From an uncultured Pelagibacteraceae bacterium (lineage in GTDB: Bacteria > Pseudomonadota > Alphaproteobacteria > Pelagibacterales > Pelagibacteraceae), in NCBI GenBank assembly GCA_902542165.1, contig CACBTF010000001.1, positions 1 to 64,000 on the forward strand: a DNA stretch of 64,000 nucleotides. The letters run 5' to 3'. Of this stretch, positions 6,250 through 47,707 are shown piece by piece. Position 1 is the stretch's first letter; every line of letters starts with the position of its first letter. The position numbers and the translations under genes are program-made. The notes beneath the pieces were generated by a model, which saw only the letters and a program-made list of their open reading frames with translations, was not told the origin of the DNA and ran no database searches.

Positions 6250-6671
6250 TTATCCTTGTTGACCCAAGGAATAGATATAAGATCTATACCCTCTTCAGAT
6301 AATTCCTTTTTCTCCTCAGAAGTAGCGGTTCCATAAATAGCTTTATTGCTTTTTTTATCATAATAAACTTCTCTAACCCTCTTGCTAAAATCTTTTCCCA
6401 CATAATCAAAATTATTTTCTATATATCTCCTTAAGTGTAGCAAAGCATTTTTTTTATCATTAAAATTTTTAATATTTATTTCTAGAAGTTCTTGCTTTTT
6501 ATTCATTGATCCTGAAATACTCGGTGCCATAATTGATTTTTCAATTTTTTTGGAGGAACAATAAATGCACTCTAATAAATTTTTATTACTTAATTTATCA
6601 AATTCATCTGAGCTAGAGAACCAACTTTCAAATTCATGGTTATTTTTACATTTTAAAATATATTTTATCAT
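6246..6671 (-). CDS. DUF1178 family protein
   Basis: MIKYILKCKNNHEFESWFSSSDEFDKL typical of DUF1178. Confidence 0.85.
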   Translation of the reverse strand: MIKYILKCKNNHEFESWFSSSDEFDKLSNKNLLECIYCSSKKIEKSIMAPSISGSMNKKQELLEINIKNFNDKKNALLHLRRYIENNFDYVGKDFSKRVREVYYDKKSNKAIYGTATSEEKKELSEEGIDLISIPWVNKDN

Positions 6672-7976
6672 TTAATTTCTATAATCGGAATTAATATCTA
6701 TATAATCGTGCGTGAAATCACAAGTATAGCACTTAAAAGCATCATTACCAAGTTTCAAATTCACTTCAATTTCTATTGATCCCCATTGCATATATTCTTT
6801 TAATTTTTTTTCATCATAAGTTTCAGAAATTTTACCATTTTCTGCAACAATAAAATTACCTATTTTAATTTTTAATTTTTTTTGATCAACTATCTCACCT
6901 GATTTTCCAATTCCCATTGCAATTCTTCCCCAATTCGGATCTTCGCCTGCTATGGCTGTTTTAACCAGAGGTGAATTAGCAATTGAAAAAGCAATGTTTT
7001 TTGCACTACCTAAAGATTTTGCATTAATAACATTTATGGTTAAAAATTTCTTAGCACCTTCTCCGTCAACTACAACTTGTTTAGCTAAATTTAAGCAAAG
7101 TTTTTTTAATGCTATTTCGAATTTTTGAACTGCTTTATCATTCAGTGAGATATTCTGACCAATTTTTATTGTTCTAGTTGAAAAAATGGTTACCATATCA
7201 TTGGTTGATTGATCGCTATCTACCGTAATAGCATTAAAAGAATTAGCTATAGCTCTTTTTAAAAGAGTCTTAAGTAAATTAGAATTAATGTCTGCATTAG
7301 TAAAAATAAAAGATAGCATTGTCGCTAGATTAGGTGCAATCATTCCTGAACCTTTTGCTATTCCACAAATTTTTATTAATTCATCGCCTAATATTATTTC
7401 TTCATAAGCAAGTTTTGGTTTTGTATCTGTAGTCATAATTGCAGATGCCATTTTAATCCAATACATTTTGTTATGTTCTGATCTTAATCTATCAACTAAA
7501 TCTGGAAGGCGATCTTTGATTTGTTCGGCTGGGAATTCCTCTCCTATCACTCCAGTAGAAGCAAAAATTAAATCTTTTACTTTTACTGTCTCACTCGTTC
7601 CTTTTTTATTTTTAGACTCTTTAATAGTTAGAACCCTCGATAAATTTTTTGCTAAAATATCTATTCCATCTTTTCCCTGTTTTCCTGTAAAAGTATTAGC
7701 GTTTTTTGTGTTAACTAATAGTCCTTTAATAATTTTCTTATGTGAGTTGTTATTCCACGGAATAAATTCAGAAGTAATACTGTTTGAAGTTGTTAGAGTC
7801 GCATAATTTGCACCCTTACTAAAATAAAATAATGCTAAGTCGTCCCTTCCATCTTTATACAAATCGGCCGAAATTGATGCCATCTCCAAGCCCTCAATTT
7901 GTTTAAGGCTTTGAAACTCACCCATTTTTGATAATTTTGTTTTATCGTTTAAGAAATTTTTAATATTTATTGTCAT
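6672..7976 (-). CDS. argJ: Bifunctional glutamate N-acetyltransferase / amino-acid acetyltransferase
   Basis: ORF; ATMLSF self-cleavage region and GEDPNWGRI. Confidence 0.96.
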   Translation of the reverse strand: MTINIKNFLNDKTKLSKMGEFQSLKQIEGLEMASISADLYKDGRDDLALFYFSKGANYATLTTSNSITSEFIPWNNNSHKKIIKGLLVNTKNANTFTGKQGKDGIDILAKNLSRVLTIKESKNKKGTSETVKVKDLIFASTGVIGEEFPAEQIKDRLPDLVDRLRSEHNKMYWIKMASAIMTTDTKPKLAYEEIILGDELIKICGIAKGSGMIAPNLATMLSFIFTNADINSNLLKTLLKRAIANSFNAITVDSDQSTNDMVTIFSTRTIKIGQNISLNDKAVQKFEIALKKLCLNLAKQVVVDGEGAKKFLTINVINAKSLGSAKNIAFSIANSPLVKTAIAGEDPNWGRIAMGIGKSGEIVDQKKLKIKIGNFIVAENGKISETYDEKKLKEYMQWGSIEIEVNLKLGNDAFKCYTCDFTHDYIDINSDYRN

Positions 7977-8020
7977 TATTGATGTTTAATTTTTACTAAT
8001 AATACATATATAGGTTTATA

Positions 8021-40801: not shown

Positions 40802-42175
40802 ATGAAAATATATAAAAAACAATCACTCGCTGAAACTTTCTCTGTTTATTTTGATATTAGAATGTTTAAAATATTACTTCTTGGTGCAATAAGTGGTTTT
40901 CCTTGGGTCATTATTGGAAGCAGTTTAAGTCTATGGTTAAAAGAAGACGGTTTAAGCAGAAGCACTATAGGCTGGGCTGGGTTGATTTTTGCAGTTTATG
41001 CTTTCAATTATTTATGGGCTCCAATTATAGATAGAGTAAAAATTCCTTGGTTGACAAATAAAATTGGTCATAGGCGTGGCTGGATTGTTTTAATGCAAAC
41101 TATCATATTAATTAGTTTAATTTTTTGGAGTTTGATTGAGCCGTCTACAAATTTAGCATTAGTAATAAGTGTTGGGCTTATAATTGCTATTGCTTCAGCG
41201 ACACAAGATATAACCGTCGATGCATTAAGAATTGAACAAATTGGAGAGAACGAGGGAAAATCTATGCAGGCTGGTGCAGCGATGGCAGTGGTAGGTTGGT
41301 GGACTGGGTATAAGTTAGGCGGTGTAGTGGCCCTTACCTCAGCAGAATTCTTTCAAAATTTTGGTTTTGAAAATTATTGGCAAATAACTTTTCTAGTTCT
41401 AGGAGCTTTAATTATAGCCTGTAACATTGGTTTAATGTTTGTAAACGAGGCTTTGCAAACAGATAGAAGCGACACTCAAAAAAGAACAGATAAAATGATT
41501 GAAGATAAATTAGGTACTTCAAACTTTTTAACAAAAACTATTGCATGGATTACCGGGACAGTTGCAGGTCCAATAATTAGCTTTTTTAAAAAAAATGGTT
41601 TTAATATTGCTTTAGCAATATTAGCTTTTATTTTTCTTTTTAAAATCGGGGAGGCTTTTCTTGGTAGAATGTCAGTAATTTTTTATAAGGAAATTGGTTT
41701 TACAAAGACAGATATAGCATTGTATTCCAAAGGTCTTGGGTGGTTAACCACTGTAATTTTTACACTGCTAGGTGGTTTGTTTGCTATTAGATCTGGTGTG
41801 GTAAAAGCTATGTTTATTTCAGGAATACTGATGGCCTCAACAAATTTACTTTTTTCTTTATTGGCATGGTCAGGGAAATCAGAATTATTGTTTGCTATTG
41901 CAGTAATATTTGATGATATGGCAGCAGCCTTTGCCACGGTTGCGTTTGTAGCTTTTATTTCGATGCTAGTAGATAGAACTTACACTGCAACACAATATGC
42001 TTTATTAGCTTCGATCGGAACAGCAGGACGAACAACTTTAGCGGCATCCTCTGGGGCTTTAGTTGATTGGTTAAATGGAGACTGGGGTATATTTTTTATT
42101 ATCACTGCAATAATGGTAATTCCATCTCTTATATTTCTTTACATGATAAGACATAAACTTAATTTAAATGATTAA
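40802..42175 (+). CDS. MFS transporter, AmpG-like
   Basis: 12-TM-like ORF; SATQDITVDALRIEQI, DDMAAAFATVAFVAFISML. Confidence 0.85.
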   Translation: MKIYKKQSLAETFSVYFDIRMFKILLLGAISGFPWVIIGSSLSLWLKEDGLSRSTIGWAGLIFAVYAFNYLWAPIIDRVKIPWLTNKIGHRRGWIVLMQTIILISLIFWSLIEPSTNLALVISVGLIIAIASATQDITVDALRIEQIGENEGKSMQAGAAMAVVGWWTGYKLGGVVALTSAEFFQNFGFENYWQITFLVLGALIIACNIGLMFVNEALQTDRSDTQKRTDKMIEDKLGTSNFLTKTIAWITGTVAGPIISFFKKNGFNIALAILAFIFLFKIGEAFLGRMSVIFYKEIGFTKTDIALYSKGLGWLTTVIFTLLGGLFAIRSGVVKAMFISGILMASTNLLFSLLAWSGKSELLFAIAVIFDDMAAAFATVAFVAFISMLVDRTYTATQYALLASIGTAGRTTLAASSGALVDWLNGDWGIFFIITAIMVIPSLIFLYMIRHKLNLND

Positions 42176-42905
42176 ATATTTTACAAATAATTTTTCAGTA
42201 ATAAATCTTTATAAGAAACCTTCGTCAGAATCTGAAATAGTTACACAAATGATTTATGGTGAAAGCTTTTCTATAACTAAGAAATCAAAAAAATGGCTTA
42301 AGATAAAAATTAAAGAAGATAATTATAAAGGTTATATATTAAATAAAAAATATTCTACTTTTTTAAAACCAACCCATAAAGTAAATTTATTAAAGGCGAA
42401 AATTTATAAATTTCCAAATAAAATTAAAAAAGGAGAAATCACCTTTGGCTCTAAAATTAGAGTAATTGACCAAGATTCAAAATCATTTAAATTTGCTGGA
42501 GGATGGATAAGCAAACAAGATGTAAAGCCGATTTTGTTTAAAGAAAAAAACCCTTTTAGAAAAATTACATATTTTAAAAATATAAGATATAAGTGGGGCG
42601 GTAAATCTTTTAAAGGAATTGATTGCTCGGCACTTGTACAAATTTTTTTGAATTTTAATAATAAATTTTGCCCGAGAGATGCTAAAGATCAGGTTAAATA
42701 TTTCAAAAAAAATGTAAAATTAAAAAACATAAAAAAAAATGATATGATTTATTGGAGAGGCCATGTTGCTGTAGCATTATCAAATAAAAAATTAATTCAT
42801 GCTTATGGACCAATGAAGAAAACTGTTATAATGGGTATCAATCAAACAATTAAAAGAATTAAAAGTACTGCCAGACTTAATATAATTGGAATTAAAAGGC
42901 TTTAA
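42168..42905 (+). CDS. SH3-like plus NlpC/P60 (C40) peptidase family protein
   Basis: YKWGGKSFKGIDCSALVQ, RDAKDQ, HVAVALSNKKLIHAYG. Confidence 0.9.
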   Translation: MIKYFTNNFSVINLYKKPSSESEIVTQMIYGESFSITKKSKKWLKIKIKEDNYKGYILNKKYSTFLKPTHKVNLLKAKIYKFPNKIKKGEITFGSKIRVIDQDSKSFKFAGGWISKQDVKPILFKEKNPFRKITYFKNIRYKWGGKSFKGIDCSALVQIFLNFNNKFCPRDAKDQVKYFKKNVKLKNIKKNDMIYWRGHVAVALSNKKLIHAYGPMKKTVIMGINQTIKRIKSTARLNIIGIKRL

Positions 42906-42944: not shown

Positions 42945-43020
42945 AAAAATTTATCCGATTCATGAAATTAATAGAAGACTCTTTTAAGTTGTATGTGGAT
43001 ATGGTTATAAATATTAAAAT

Positions 43021-43908
43021 TCACCTATAAAATAAGGCTAATGAAGCTGATAACCCTACTCCAAAACCGCATATAACAAATTTCTTTTCTCTTTTAAATC
43101 TTATCATATTTTGCTTAAGCAGTAGTGGAATTGAAGAAGAAACAAGATTACCATAATTAGAAAAATTAACTGGAAAAAAAATTTTTTTATTAATTCTATT
43201 TTTTATTTGACTCATCACAACTTTACCAGCCTGATGTGAAAAAATACAATTTACATTTTTACTCAATTTTTTAATTTCTGGAATTACATCTTTTAGAGCA
43301 AATGAAACGACTGCTGGTCCATTCATATTTATTTCATCTTTAATCAAGCTAAGATCTTTTTCTGTGTTGAATGAATTTTTAAAAATTTTTTTTTTTAATT
43401 TAAAACCTTTTTTTTTGTAACTTATTAAAGTAGCTGCCGCACCATCGCTAAATAAACATCTTGTAGCTTTATTATTTTTACTTATAAATTTAGAATAGGT
43501 ATCAGAAGTAACTAGTAAAATTTTAGATTTTTTGTCATTTTTAACTAAGCCATAACTTATTATTAGAGCATCAACAAACCCTGTACATCCTAGGTTTAAG
43601 TTTAAACAATGAGCTTGTGAGAGAGCAAGTTTGCTGGATAAAAAATTTGAAATACCAGGAAATCTTAAATTTTGGGTATTTGTAACACTTATTATATGTG
43701 TAATATTTTTAAGCTTATTTTTCTTAAATTTTTTACATGCTTTTATTGCTAAACTTTCAGCGGTCTCGTTATATTTAGCAATAGTTCTACTTTTAATTCC
43801 TGTAAGATTATAAATAGTCCCTTTTTTTAAATTAAATTTATTTTCTATAATGTCATTTTTTTCAGTAACGGACCCTAGTGCAACGTGTATTTCATCAATT
43901 TCAATCAT
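43021..43908 (-). CDS. 3-oxoacyl-ACP synthase III (FabH-like) family protein
   Basis: Cys in LNLGCTGFVDAL, HQA in FSHQAGKVVM, Asn in SNYGNLVSSSIPLLL; C-terminus CGFGVGLSASLALFYR. Confidence 0.92.
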   Translation of the reverse strand: MIEIDEIHVALGSVTEKNDIIENKFNLKKGTIYNLTGIKSRTIAKYNETAESLAIKACKKFKKNKLKNITHIISVTNTQNLRFPGISNFLSSKLALSQAHCLNLNLGCTGFVDALIISYGLVKNDKKSKILLVTSDTYSKFISKNNKATRCLFSDGAAATLISYKKKGFKLKKKIFKNSFNTEKDLSLIKDEINMNGPAVVSFALKDVIPEIKKLSKNVNCIFSHQAGKVVMSQIKNRINKKIFFPVNFSNYGNLVSSSIPLLLKQNMIRFKREKKFVICGFGVGLSASLALFYR

Positions 43909-44537
43909 TATAATATTTTAATATTTTTTTTATTAATTTTTTTATTATTTAAAATATTTGATATCTTTTTTATTACATTTTTTATAGAATTATATTTTTT
44001 TTTAGTATTGGTTAATTTTTTAACCCTAATACCCATTTCATTTTTTATCAAGCCAAGCGAGATACTATTAATTCTTACTTTTCGTTTTCTTTGCTCGTTA
44101 CTAAGAATTTTAGCAGAAAAACTTAAAGCGTTCTTTGAAATACTATAATTAGCATTACCGATTAAATCTTCAAAACCTGCAATTGATGAAATGAAATATA
44201 TAGCTCCATTTTTTTTTAATAGTTTTTTCTTAATTACAAAAGATGAGATTTCCATTGGAATTAAGAAATTTATTTTGAAATCTTTTAAGAAATTCTTGCT
44301 ATTGAATGTGCTTAAAAATGAATAAGAAAAATATCCATTGAATATAACTACATTATCATATTTTTGAGTAATTTTTTTTTGTAATTTATTTAAAGATGAA
44401 ACGTTATAATTATCTATTTTAAAAACTTTATTATAAACATTATTATTTTTTTTTAAAGACACCGAGTCAGTATTTTTAAATTTTTTAGCAAGTTGTAAAG
44501 CTATATTACTTGAACCACCAAAGAAAAGATTGTTCAT
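43908..44537 (-). CDS. SDR family oxidoreductase (ketoreductase-like)
   Basis: N-terminal GGSSNIA, YxxxK in NYSISKNALSF, ISSIAGFE. Confidence 0.88.
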   Translation of the reverse strand: MNNLFFGGSSNIALQLAKKFKNTDSVSLKKNNNVYNKVFKIDNYNVSSLNKLQKKITQKYDNVVIFNGYFSYSFLSTFNSKNFLKDFKINFLIPMEISSFVIKKKLLKKNGAIYFISSIAGFEDLIGNANYSISKNALSFSAKILSNEQRKRKVRINSISLGLIKNEMGIRVKKLTNTKKKYNSIKNVIKKISNILNNKKINKKNIKIL

Positions 44538-44758
44538 TTTTTTTTGATTGTTTTTTCTATTAATTCATCAATGTCTTTAAAATAAACTATTTTTTTTAAT
44601 TTTTTTAAATCAAGGGATTTGGAAAACTTTTCATCTAAAATACCTATTAAATTTATCACGGTCATAGAGTCCCAATTAAAGTTTTCAACTTTTTCCTCTG
44701 GTTTAATTTTTTTTTTTTCTAAGCCGAATGATTTAGAAATTATATTCAAATGTTTCAT
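44534..44758 (-). CDS. Acyl carrier protein
   Basis: 74 aa; phosphopantetheine site NWDSMTVINLIGILDEKF. Confidence 0.88.
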   Translation of the reverse strand: MKHLNIISKSFGLEKKKIKPEEKVENFNWDSMTVINLIGILDEKFSKSLDLKKLKKIVYFKDIDELIEKTIKKK

Positions 44759-44837
44759 TTATAATTAGTTATTAAAGATGGTTATACATTGATATTAAAA
44801 AAACAACAATCTTCTATATTTATAAATAGCATGATAT

Positions 44838-45632
44838 CTAGAGTGATAATTCAGAATTAAAAGGTAAGATAAAATTTTCAGTTTTATGATTTTTAATTAG
44901 CCATACGTTGGTATTTCTAGTTGCATTATTTTTAGAAAAAAAATTAATTTTAATAACACGATATTTAATTGCTAATTTAAGTAATTTAAACAGATTAACT
45001 TTATTATTATTAGCCAAATAAATATTTAAAATATTAAAACTTAATCTAAATTTTTTATGAGTGTTAACTGAAAAAAAACCAGTGTCTTCAGTATTTTGAT
45101 AATCTAAATTTTGCACATCCTTTAATGGTAGAATTTTACTCGTCCTGAGGTATGTCTTTTTAAATAAAGGCAAAATACTGAAAAAAGGAAATTTATTACA
45201 AACACCAATCTCATGCCTGTCTACTTCCATTTGAATAAAATTTAGTGACTTAAAAATCTTACAAGCAGCAGCACTAGGAGTATAATCTGTAATTATTTTG
45301 TCATCGAGAGCTTCGACTAAATCCTTTGCAAAAGTAATAGCTTCAATGCCTCTATGACTTTGTAATGCAAACCAAGATGAAAGATTAATCACATCCTTTC
45401 CTTCGAGAAAGCTTCGACCTTGGTAAAATAATAATACTGCAATAACAATTTTTCCATTCTCCTTGTATATTGCACCATATGGAGTTTTTTGCTCTTTACT
45501 ATTTAATCTCTCTAATATTCTGTTGCTTTTTTCATCATTCCATGAAAATCCTTTTTGAAGAAATTTGATTGCTTCCACTAGTAATTTTGATTGTGTTATT
45601 AAATTAAAGCCATCATTTATTTTTTTTTCCAT
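44838..45632 (-). CDS. GNAT-like acyltransferase
   Basis: Acetyltransferase-like pattern NLSSWFALQSHRGIEAITFAKDLVEAL...TPSAAACKIFKSLNF; fold inferred by eye. Confidence 0.6.
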   Translation of the reverse strand: MEKKINDGFNLITQSKLLVEAIKFLQKGFSWNDEKSNRILERLNSKEQKTPYGAIYKENGKIVIAVLLFYQGRSFLEGKDVINLSSWFALQSHRGIEAITFAKDLVEALDDKIITDYTPSAAACKIFKSLNFIQMEVDRHEIGVCNKFPFFSILPLFKKTYLRTSKILPLKDVQNLDYQNTEDTGFFSVNTHKKFRLSFNILNIYLANNNKVNLFKLLKLAIKYRVIKINFFSKNNATRNTNVWLIKNHKTENFILPFNSELSL

Positions 45633-45725
45633 ATAGGGACCTAATTTTAATTAAGCATAAAACTTACGCTTTGAAATAATTTAATTTAAGTTAATATAAT
45701 TTTAAATATTTTTTTATAAAAAGAT

Positions 45726-46511
45726 ATGAATAATTTTCTTAAAAATTTTATCAATAGTAATACAGGAATGTTAATTAGAATAGATGATATAGCTGAAAAC
45801 ATGAACTGGGAATTAATGGAAAAATGTGAAGTATTATTTGATAAATACAATATTAAACCTGTGCTAGGTGTAATACCTAATAATCAAGACAAAGAGCTAA
45901 TGAATTATGAGAGAAAAGAAAATTTTTGGGACATTGTTCGAAATTGGAACAAAAAAGGATGGGAAATATCTATGCACGGAAATAATCATGTTTATGACAA
46001 AAAAACTTATAAAAAAGATTTTTTCAAATATGGAGGAAGTTCTGAATTTTTTGGTCATGATTATGATACCCAGAAAAATAAAATTGATGATGGTCTTAAA
46101 AAGTTTAATAATGAGAATTTGAAGATAAGGTCTTTTTTTGCACCTAATCATACTTATGATTTAAATACTTTTGAAGCATTAAAAAACTCTGGTATTAAAA
46201 ATATTTTAGATGGCTACGGTATATTGCCTTATAAAAAAAATGGACTTAATTTTATTCCTCAATTATTTTATAGAATAATTTTTTTACCTTTTGGAATTCA
46301 GTCTACACAAATCCATTTAAACTACTGGAAATATGAGGATTACAAAAAGTTTGAAGATTTTATAATTCAAAATCATGACAAAGTAATTTCTTTTGATCAA
46401 GCGCTTAAAAAATTAAATAATAATCTTATTTATTTATCTTTAAATTTTTTAATTAAAGTTTGTCTTCAAACTTTAAGGCTTAAAAAAAAATTAGTTAAAC
46501 AATACTTCTAA
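45726..46511 (+). CDS. DUF2334 / polysaccharide-deacetylase-like protein
   Basis: MLIRIDDIAENMNWELMEKCEVLFDKYNIKPVLGVIPNN, WEISMHGNNHVY, SFFAPNHTYD. Confidence 0.83.
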   Translation: MNNFLKNFINSNTGMLIRIDDIAENMNWELMEKCEVLFDKYNIKPVLGVIPNNQDKELMNYERKENFWDIVRNWNKKGWEISMHGNNHVYDKKTYKKDFFKYGGSSEFFGHDYDTQKNKIDDGLKKFNNENLKIRSFFAPNHTYDLNTFEALKNSGIKNILDGYGILPYKKNGLNFIPQLFYRIIFLPFGIQSTQIHLNYWKYEDYKKFEDFIIQNHDKVISFDQALKKLNNNLIYLSLNFLIKVCLQTLRLKKKLVKQYF

Positions 46512-46564
46512 TAATCAAACTACTAACGACTCGTTATGTACTCGTTTATAAGCAATTATTAGCA

Positions 46565-46590
46565 ATATTGTGTGCAATATGAGTCTTTTT
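46565..46590 (+). terminator. Possible intrinsic terminator after the deacetylase gene
   Basis: ATATTG-TGTG-CAATAT perfect hairpin then gagtcTTTTTT; weak because stem is AT-rich. Confidence 0.35.
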
Positions 46591-46595
46591 TGAAA

Positions 46596-46685
46596 TGGCG
46601 GAGAGAGAGGGATTCGAACCCTCGAAACAGTTTCCCGTTTACACGCTTTCCAAGCGTGCGCCTTCAACCACTCGGCCACCTCTCC
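46596..46685 (-). tRNA. tRNA-Ser (anticodon GGA)
   Basis: Minus strand GGAGAGGTGGCCGAGTGGTTGAAGGCGCACGCTTGGAAAGCGTG...GGTTCGAATCCCTCTCTCTCCGCCA; long variable arm, encoded CCA. Confidence 0.96.
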
Positions 46686-47707
46686 TAATTAAAATCATCT
46701 ATATGTTTGATGAATTTATCTATGAACTCTTTATTTGTTGGCAACTTATTTTTCTTCATGTCTTTTTGAATTTTTTTATAATTTTTTTTAATATTATTTA
46801 AAGTCCCTAGAAAACTTAAAAAATTTCTTTTTGTAACAAAAATCCCTTTTTTGTCTCCTATCACATGTTTAATTTCATCAAAAATAACTACTGGCCTTCT
46901 TCTAGCCAAGGCTTCTAGTAAAACCATTGGATGACCTTCCGTAAATGAAGGTAAAACGAAGATATTATGATCATCATAATTTTTTATTAATTTAGTTTTG
47001 TTACTTTGTGTGGGAAGAACTTTAATGTTACTTTGATTTATTTTATTTGAAATTCCCTTTTCTGCGCCAATAATTGTCAAAGAGATATCTCGTTTATTTC
47101 TAATCAACTCTGTCAGAGCAAAAATTCCTTTTTCAACTCTTACTCTTCCAACATACAAAAGTTTAAAATTTCTTATTTCTATATTTTTGGGTTGTCTTAA
47201 CCAAACAGAATCTAATTGAGATGGGTTTATAAGTTTTCCCTTTTTTCCATGAAGAATGTAATCCCTGCAGCTTATTAAATTTGAAATCGCTCCGGTAATA
47301 CTAAACATAAAATGATAAATTAAAGATCCAATTCTTCCAAGAATTGCTTTGTATTCACCATAACCATCACTTCTCAAATAAACTATCGGTTTTTGCCCTA
47401 GAATTTTTAAGAATATAGAAATTAAGAAAGTATAAGGAGAAATAGAAATTATCAAAAATTTAGAGTCCAAATTTTTTGAAGCACTTTTTACCTCTGATAA
47501 ATAAGAAAATATGTTACTAAATACCTTTATTCTTTTTAACTTTATTTCATGAGATCTCTTTTTAATTGATATTCTGCCTAGTAAATTTACCTCAAATTTT
47601 TTATTTAAGCCTTCTGGTGTCGATTTTAAATCTAGGTTATCACAATAAAATTTATTGTCTTCTAGAGAAATACTTTCATTTGAGAAAATAAATAATTTTT
47701 TTTTCAT
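46685..47707 (-). CDS. Glycosyltransferase family 4-like protein
   Basis: [46 protein letters not shown]. Confidence 0.9.

Follow-up and report, generated by a model that had tools for sequence, protein, structure and literature searches.

The 64,000-nucleotide stretch analyzed here (the window; positions 1 to 64,000 of contig CACBTF010000001.1, assembly GCA_902542165.1) comes from an uncultured Pelagibacteraceae bacterium of the SAR11 clade (Pelagibacterales) and carries, next to a tRNA-Ser gene, a discrete 3.59-kb insertion with five genes. They encode a FabH-like 3-ketoacyl-acyl carrier protein synthase III (KAS III), a short-chain dehydrogenase/reductase (SDR), a small acyl carrier protein (ACP), a 264-amino-acid (aa) protein that is probably a divergent GNAT-type acyltransferase, and a predicted DUF2334 sugar N-deacetylase. 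We consider it fairly likely that the insertion is a horizontally exchanged cassette that alters the N-acyl group on an amino sugar, presumably within a surface glycan. SAR11 ranks with the most abundant clades of the ocean, and the enzyme-level basis of strain surface variation and phage contact is largely unexplained. The cassette would unite the dedicated synthesis of an acyl-ACP for sugars with deacetylation and re-acylation in one exchangeable block, and it offers a defined series of reactions and a few proteins amenable to in vitro work.

An insertion bordered by tRNA-Ser

The insertion and its genes are as follows (E-values are given for Pfam and NCBIfam matches).
43003..46592, no strand: inserted cassette of about 3.59 kb, delimited by blastn of empty sites; close relatives lack it at this site
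43021..43908, minus strand: KAS III (FabH-like, 295 aa); Pfam ACP_syn_III 1.5e-15, ACP_syn_III_C 1.8e-10
43908..44537, minus strand: SDR, putative ketoreductase (209 aa); Pfam adh_short 3e-14
44534..44758, minus strand: ACP (74 aa) with a DSM site at Ser31; NCBIfam ACP 1.5e-5, below cut-off
44838..45632, minus strand: probable divergent GNAT-type acyltransferase (264 aa), from profile ranking and Foldseek; no Pfam or NCBIfam match
45726..46511, plus strand: predicted DUF2334 sugar N-deacetylase (261 aa); Pfam DUF2334 1.3e-39

The empty site was found in five relatives (loci L128, L129, L130, L133, and L134), whose family 4 glycosyltransferase (GT4) is 90-96% identical to that of the window. 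Their gene order is GT4, tRNA-Ser, and NlpC, with the NlpC/P60 gene in synteny and less than 200 bp between the GT4 and NlpC genes. In blastn alignments of these five sites with the window, the left arm stops at 43002 and the right arm starts at 46589-46593, so that the right border coincides with the 3' end of tRNA-Ser. Because the empty sites bracket all five genes, the genes form one block at an insertion site, and both the empty site and the border tRNA of a tRNA-borne islet are present. There is no integrase gene in the cassette, the five open reading frames (ORFs) that fill it all being assigned to other families, and no attachment-site repeat was seen on reading both junctions of the blastn alignment, the only repeat search made.

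An earlier note on this DNA, made by a model from the sequence alone, had proposed the five genes as a surface-glycan acylation system, and their placement, orientation, and intact catalytic residues were borne out by the ORF list, Pfam, and alignments. The KAS III and SDR genes overlap by 1 bp and the SDR and ACP genes by 4 bp, all three on the minus strand. The gene for the 264-aa protein is codirectional with the ACP gene, 79 bp upstream of it, and diverges from the DUF2334 gene across a 93-bp gap. The GC content falls to about 19-20% across the SDR and ACP genes, the minimum of the 40-50 kb stretch, and promoter-like matches are no more numerous than expected by chance.

The same tRNA-Ser spot holds different contents in related strains: deacetylase-KAS III-methyltransferase-ACP-GNAT in L047; deacetylase-methyltransferase-GNAT in L053; a deacetylase with a 363-aa GNAT-like, a small ACP-like, a methyltransferase, and FkbH-like proteins in L056; and an FkbH-like/ACP-like/methyltransferase/MBOAT O-acyltransferase set in L136 (genome G035, 6420-8012). 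The label FkbH-like is our interpretation of the HAD-type center in a 552-aa protein and has no family match behind it. These varied cassettes fit the proposal that surface-gene cassettes of SAR11 are exchanged with the help of structural RNA genes (PMC2217521). We also observed that a 576-579-aa protein fills the spot in L132 (1282-3018), L138, and L142; the one examined has no Pfam match.

Three further features flank the insertion.
46596..46685, minus strand: tRNA-Ser (GGA), found by ARAGORN; its 3' end is the right insertion border, and it is the anchor, outside the module
46685..47707, minus strand: GT4 glycosyltransferase; Pfam Glycos_transf_1 1e-16; near-core flank outside the cassette
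42168..42905, plus strand: NlpC/P60 protein; Pfam NLPC_P60 1.5e-13; left flank outside the cassette

The GT4 gene, which the earlier note had mentioned as lying past tRNA-Ser, is not a member of the cluster: of the 169 genus genomes, 132 carry it, among them 13 of the 14 near-complete ones and those with the empty site. We had also considered it as a GpgS-like partner glycosyltransferase and dropped this candidate because the gene is near-core.

A linked deacetylase and acyltransferase

The DUF2334 protein scores 136.4 bits against a Pfam cut-off of 26, and Asp20-Asp21, His84, and His88, the DD and HxxxH metal site, are invariant in an alignment of eight. Against the NodB-type family Polysacc_deac_1 it stays below the cut-off (21.5 versus 23.1 bits). 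No plasmid relative and no credible solved-structure match were found for it, and our literature search found no paper that names DUF2334 together with deacetylase. The annotation COG3233, carried by the Pseudomonas aeruginosa enzyme GpgD, is one that we take to be equivalent to DUF2334. The DUF2334 protein appears to resemble GpgD, its best-characterized relative, which deacetylates a lipid carrying N-acetylglucosamine (GlcNAc).

Among the 169 genus genomes, most of them incomplete assemblies from single cells or metagenomes, DUF2334 genes occur in 65. Two protein families adjoin them, A1, consisting of ~295-aa proteins from deacetylase cassettes, and A2, a 341-aa GNAT family. A1 was found in 16 and A2 in 28 genomes, and 43 of these 44 also carry a deacetylase; the exception is a fragment at a contig edge. 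The two genes lie at most 3 kb apart in 42 of the 43 genomes with both (Fisher p 1.5e-22), and in 29 of 30 when the 14 profile-seed genomes are dropped (Fisher p 1.7e-16), where the tests ignore shared ancestry and the magnitude of p is not reliable. The window GNAT lies outside A1 and A2 and was left out of these counts. The linked pair occupies at least four chromosomal positions, namely the tRNA-Ser spot and sites at a 688-690-aa gene, which we read as pnp, at transaldolase/pntB, and at a PTA-type gene, which argues that the linkage is not due to descent alone. In named genomes, the GNAT-profile loci were all from Pelagibacterales, and several lie on contigs that also belong to genomes of the window genus. 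Deacetylases without the GNAT also exist, with a family 2 glycosyltransferase (GT2) as neighbor in L029 and L052 and with neither neighbor in a few loci (for example, L020 and L026).

Acyl-making genes accompany the pair at some of these loci. All seven genus genomes with a KAS III carry the deacetylase (p 0.001), six of them with both in one block; in G112, the KAS III and A1 GNAT genes are on a different contig from the deacetylase. Five other KAS III genomes have the run deacetylase-KAS III-methyltransferase-ACP-GNAT, which occurs at more than one position. In L146 (3951-8661), L147, and L153, the deacetylase and GNAT are found with an AMP-binding acyl ligase and an acyl-CoA dehydrogenase.

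The 264-aa protein of the window matches no Pfam or NCBIfam model, GNAT hidden Markov models (HMMs) and Pfam NodA included, and phmmer against the PDB returned nothing credible. A search of 397 genomes of the order found the protein itself alone and no close relative, and neither tblastn against plasmids and phages nor scans of genome contigs and viral contigs gave a relative. When the A1 profile was compared by hhalign with the proteins encoded at the retrieved loci, first 391 and later 493 of them, the A1 family ranked first, followed by the 363-aa protein of L056, the 264-aa protein, and members of the 341-aa family, which matches Pfam GNAT (1.3e-8, L053). The joint alignment with the 264-aa protein covers its full length, with a C-terminal motif in common. 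A single-sequence AlphaFold model was uninformative (pLDDT 38); the model built from the joint alignment has the GNAT strand-helix order in its first half at low confidence (pLDDT 41), and the matches that Foldseek listed for it were GNAT-type, including tandem-GNAT and FemX-like proteins (best E 7.9e-5). Profile ranking and Foldseek both point to the acyltransferase fold proposed in the earlier note, with no HMM match and a model of low confidence, and we consider a divergent GNAT the likely identity of the protein.

The acyl-ACP genes, the proposed reaction, and its alternatives

The catalytic residues of the trio are conserved. Seven aligned KAS III sequences all share the triad Cys108/His225/Asn254, six aligned SDR sequences all share Asn90/Ser118/Tyr131/Lys135, and the D-S-M of the ACP aligns with the phosphopantetheine sites of homologous ACPs. 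The ACP match is weak alone (Pfam PP-binding E 0.031, below cut-off), and its counterpart in the homologous KAS III-SDR-ACP set of L078 clears the Pfam cut-off (30.9 bits). A contiguous KAS III (Cys-His-Asn), SDR (Ser-Tyr-Lys), and small ACP (Ser) beside an acyltransferase gene make up an arrangement of the VioS/VioR/ACP type. A KAS III with an ACP and a ketoreductase yields a 3-hydroxyacyl-ACP.

We propose that the DUF2334 enzyme would strip the N-acetyl group from a GlcNAc-type residue, probably of a lipid-linked or cytoplasmic glycan intermediate. The KAS III would then join a short acyl-CoA to malonyl-ACP on the dedicated ACP, and reduction by the SDR would give a 3-hydroxyacyl-ACP, most likely 3-hydroxybutyryl. 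The divergent GNAT would move the 3-hydroxyacyl group onto the freed amine, and the altered sugar would be built into lipopolysaccharide (LPS), a different surface glycan, or a glycolipid. The precedents of vioS-vioR-acp, GpgD, and NodB/NodA combined lead to this erase-and-rewrite reading, in which we infer the substrate and acceptor, the acyl chain, the step order, and the surface location.

Several observations speak against this reading. The cassette holds no sugar-nucleotide gene that would name the acceptor. By phmmer, the window GNAT falls in neither of the two common linked families, with an hhalign E of 1.3e-4 to the nearer one, and its model has a pLDDT of 41. Furthermore, the window KAS III is closer to KAS III of trios free of a deacetylase (46-47% identity) than to deacetylase-linked ones (37-38%).

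One alternative keeps the erase-and-rewrite scheme and changes its acceptor: the DUF2334 enzyme would act on a GlcNAc phospholipid or glycolipid, and the GNAT would cap the amine, tuning membrane charge rather than a surface glycan. Among NCBIfam models, the deacetylase comes closest to the GlcNAc-PG deacetylase model NF053788 (E 1.2e-7), GpgD is annotated as a COG3233 predicted deacetylase and predicted to be cytoplasmic (PMC12713373), and the adjoining GT4 weakly matches a GlcNAc-PG synthase model (5e-4). However, both matches are far under their cut-offs (31.5 versus 280 and 18.9 versus 480 bits), the GT4 is near-core whereas the deacetylase is confined to the 65 genomes, and a GT2 replaces the GT4 at some deacetylase loci. 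We regard a membrane lipid as a somewhat unlikely acceptor.

The affinity of the KAS III to deacetylase-free trios means that the cassette could consist of two adjacent modules. If these were independent and merely stacked at a hot spot of insertion, the trio would feed 3-hydroxyacyl-ACP to an acyltransferase elsewhere in the genome, while the deacetylase-GNAT pair would draw on an ordinary CoA or ACP thioester for re-acylation. The 46-47% relatives are found in L077 and L078, which have the same gene order as the window and lack an adjacent deacetylase. In other SAR11 genera, KAS III-SDR-ACP sets, with or without a methyltransferase, lie inside apparent surface-sugar clusters (NeuB, PhyH, DUF4910, ABC transporter), and several adjoin AAC(3)-like Antibiotic_NAT proteins (L078 and L079); conversely, deacetylase-GNAT pairs free of acyl-making genes are known (L057-L059). 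Against independence, every one of the seven genus genomes with a KAS III has the deacetylase, six of them in a shared block, and the ACP and GNAT genes of the window run in one direction 79 bp apart. We judge two stacked modules to be improbable. The earlier note had named routine separation of these genes in related genomes as a finding against its proposal; within the genus, neither the deacetylase-GNAT pair nor the KAS III and deacetylase are routinely separate, and elsewhere in SAR11 the trio is found with AAC(3)-like acyltransferases in place of this pair.

Around these homologues, we observed a 2836-aa ORF (L078, 2-8512) adjoining the KAS III-SDR-ACP-Antibiotic_NAT cluster, and DUF4910/DUF2172 M28-peptidase-like proteins that recur near the trio (L077, 2671-3963; L078, 11241-12536). 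The KAS III query found no relative in viral contigs, and tblastn against phages and plasmids gave distant KAS III only, with 21-31% identity among the matches listed.

That the trio was acquired laterally as a set for fatty-acid initiation is very improbable: its members are fatty-acid-type enzymes and the genus shows no FabH above the family cut-off, yet 162 of the 169 relatives, all 14 near-complete ones included, live without a KAS III, and the homologues adjoin NeuB, acyltransferases, and sugar genes. The window KAS III reaches 107 bits against the 292-bit cut-off of TIGR00747, a model that does find matches in control genomes and is exceeded by none of the 169 genus genomes. Since the KAS III is missing from so many genomes, it is not needed for fatty acid synthesis, and by these profile scores it is not a housekeeping FabH; the earlier note had named a sole housekeeping copy as the finding that would overturn its proposal. 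A second copy is possible in the window genome, which is incomplete (638,519 bases, completeness 59.55), but the clade manages without one. As a separate observation, the absence of any FabH above the cut-off across this SAR11 genus suggests that fatty-acid initiation may be FabH-independent there.

Returning to the erase-and-rewrite reading, we tentatively suggest, at somewhat short of even chances, a modular form of SAR11 surface variation. The deacetylase-GNAT pair would be its constant core, and swappable acyl-making sets (KAS III/SDR/ACP; KAS III/methyltransferase/ACP; FkbH-like/ACP-like/methyltransferase; acyl ligase/acyl-CoA dehydrogenase) would set the group, with exchange at a few fixed sites, plausibly selected by phages. 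The cassette may thus be a means of varying the cell surface of which related strains hold other swap-in versions, and the reading suggests a likely role for DUF2334 genes and orphan GNAT neighbors.

Comparison with known systems

The trio finds its counterpart in the viosamine island of Pseudomonas syringae, where vioS-vioR-acp were assigned to the synthesis of the 3-hydroxybutyryl group of modified viosamine and a vioR mutant lacked modified viosamine (PMC3927599). As in vioS-vioR-acp(-vioB), a KAS III, an SDR, and a small ACP are encoded together in a strain-variable island (PMC3927599), the likeness resting on the gene set and not on direct sequence comparison. In the Vio system, however, the aminotransferase VioA supplies the amine that VioB acylates, whereas in the cassette the amine would come from the deacetylase and be acylated by the GNAT. 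The module had been called unusual for a streamlined genome; it is so only in being a strain-variable insertion, and its trio is of a known kind.

In location, the cassette resembles the hypervariable regions and LPS cassettes of SAR11, with exchangeable surface genes at a structural RNA gene (PMC2217521), although it is a small 3.6-kb islet at tRNA-Ser, unlike hypervariable region 2, which lies between rRNA genes. The likeness to gpgS-gpgD of P. aeruginosa lies in a deacetylase encoded near a GT4: there GpgD, a characterized enzyme annotated COG3233, converts lipid-linked GlcNAc-PG to GlcN-PG (PMC12713373); GpgD leaves the amine free, and neither a GNAT nor genes for an acyl-ACP are described for that system.

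The order of reactions that we propose is that of Nod factor synthesis, in which NodB N-deacetylates and NodA then transfers an acyl group from an ACP (PMC5080398, where NodE and NodF are described the other way round from usual). Like nodB-nodA-nodE/nodF, the cassette would N-deacetylate GlcNAc and then N-acylate it with a group from an acyl-ACP, for which it has a dedicated KAS and ACP. Unlike the Nod system, it has DUF2334 in place of NodB, no Pfam NodA match, a KAS III and SDR (short chains) in place of NodE, and no chitin synthase. By family it is not a Nod system, as the NodA and NodB profiles fail their cut-offs; it would rather arrive at a similar sequence of deacetylation and re-acylation with other enzymes.

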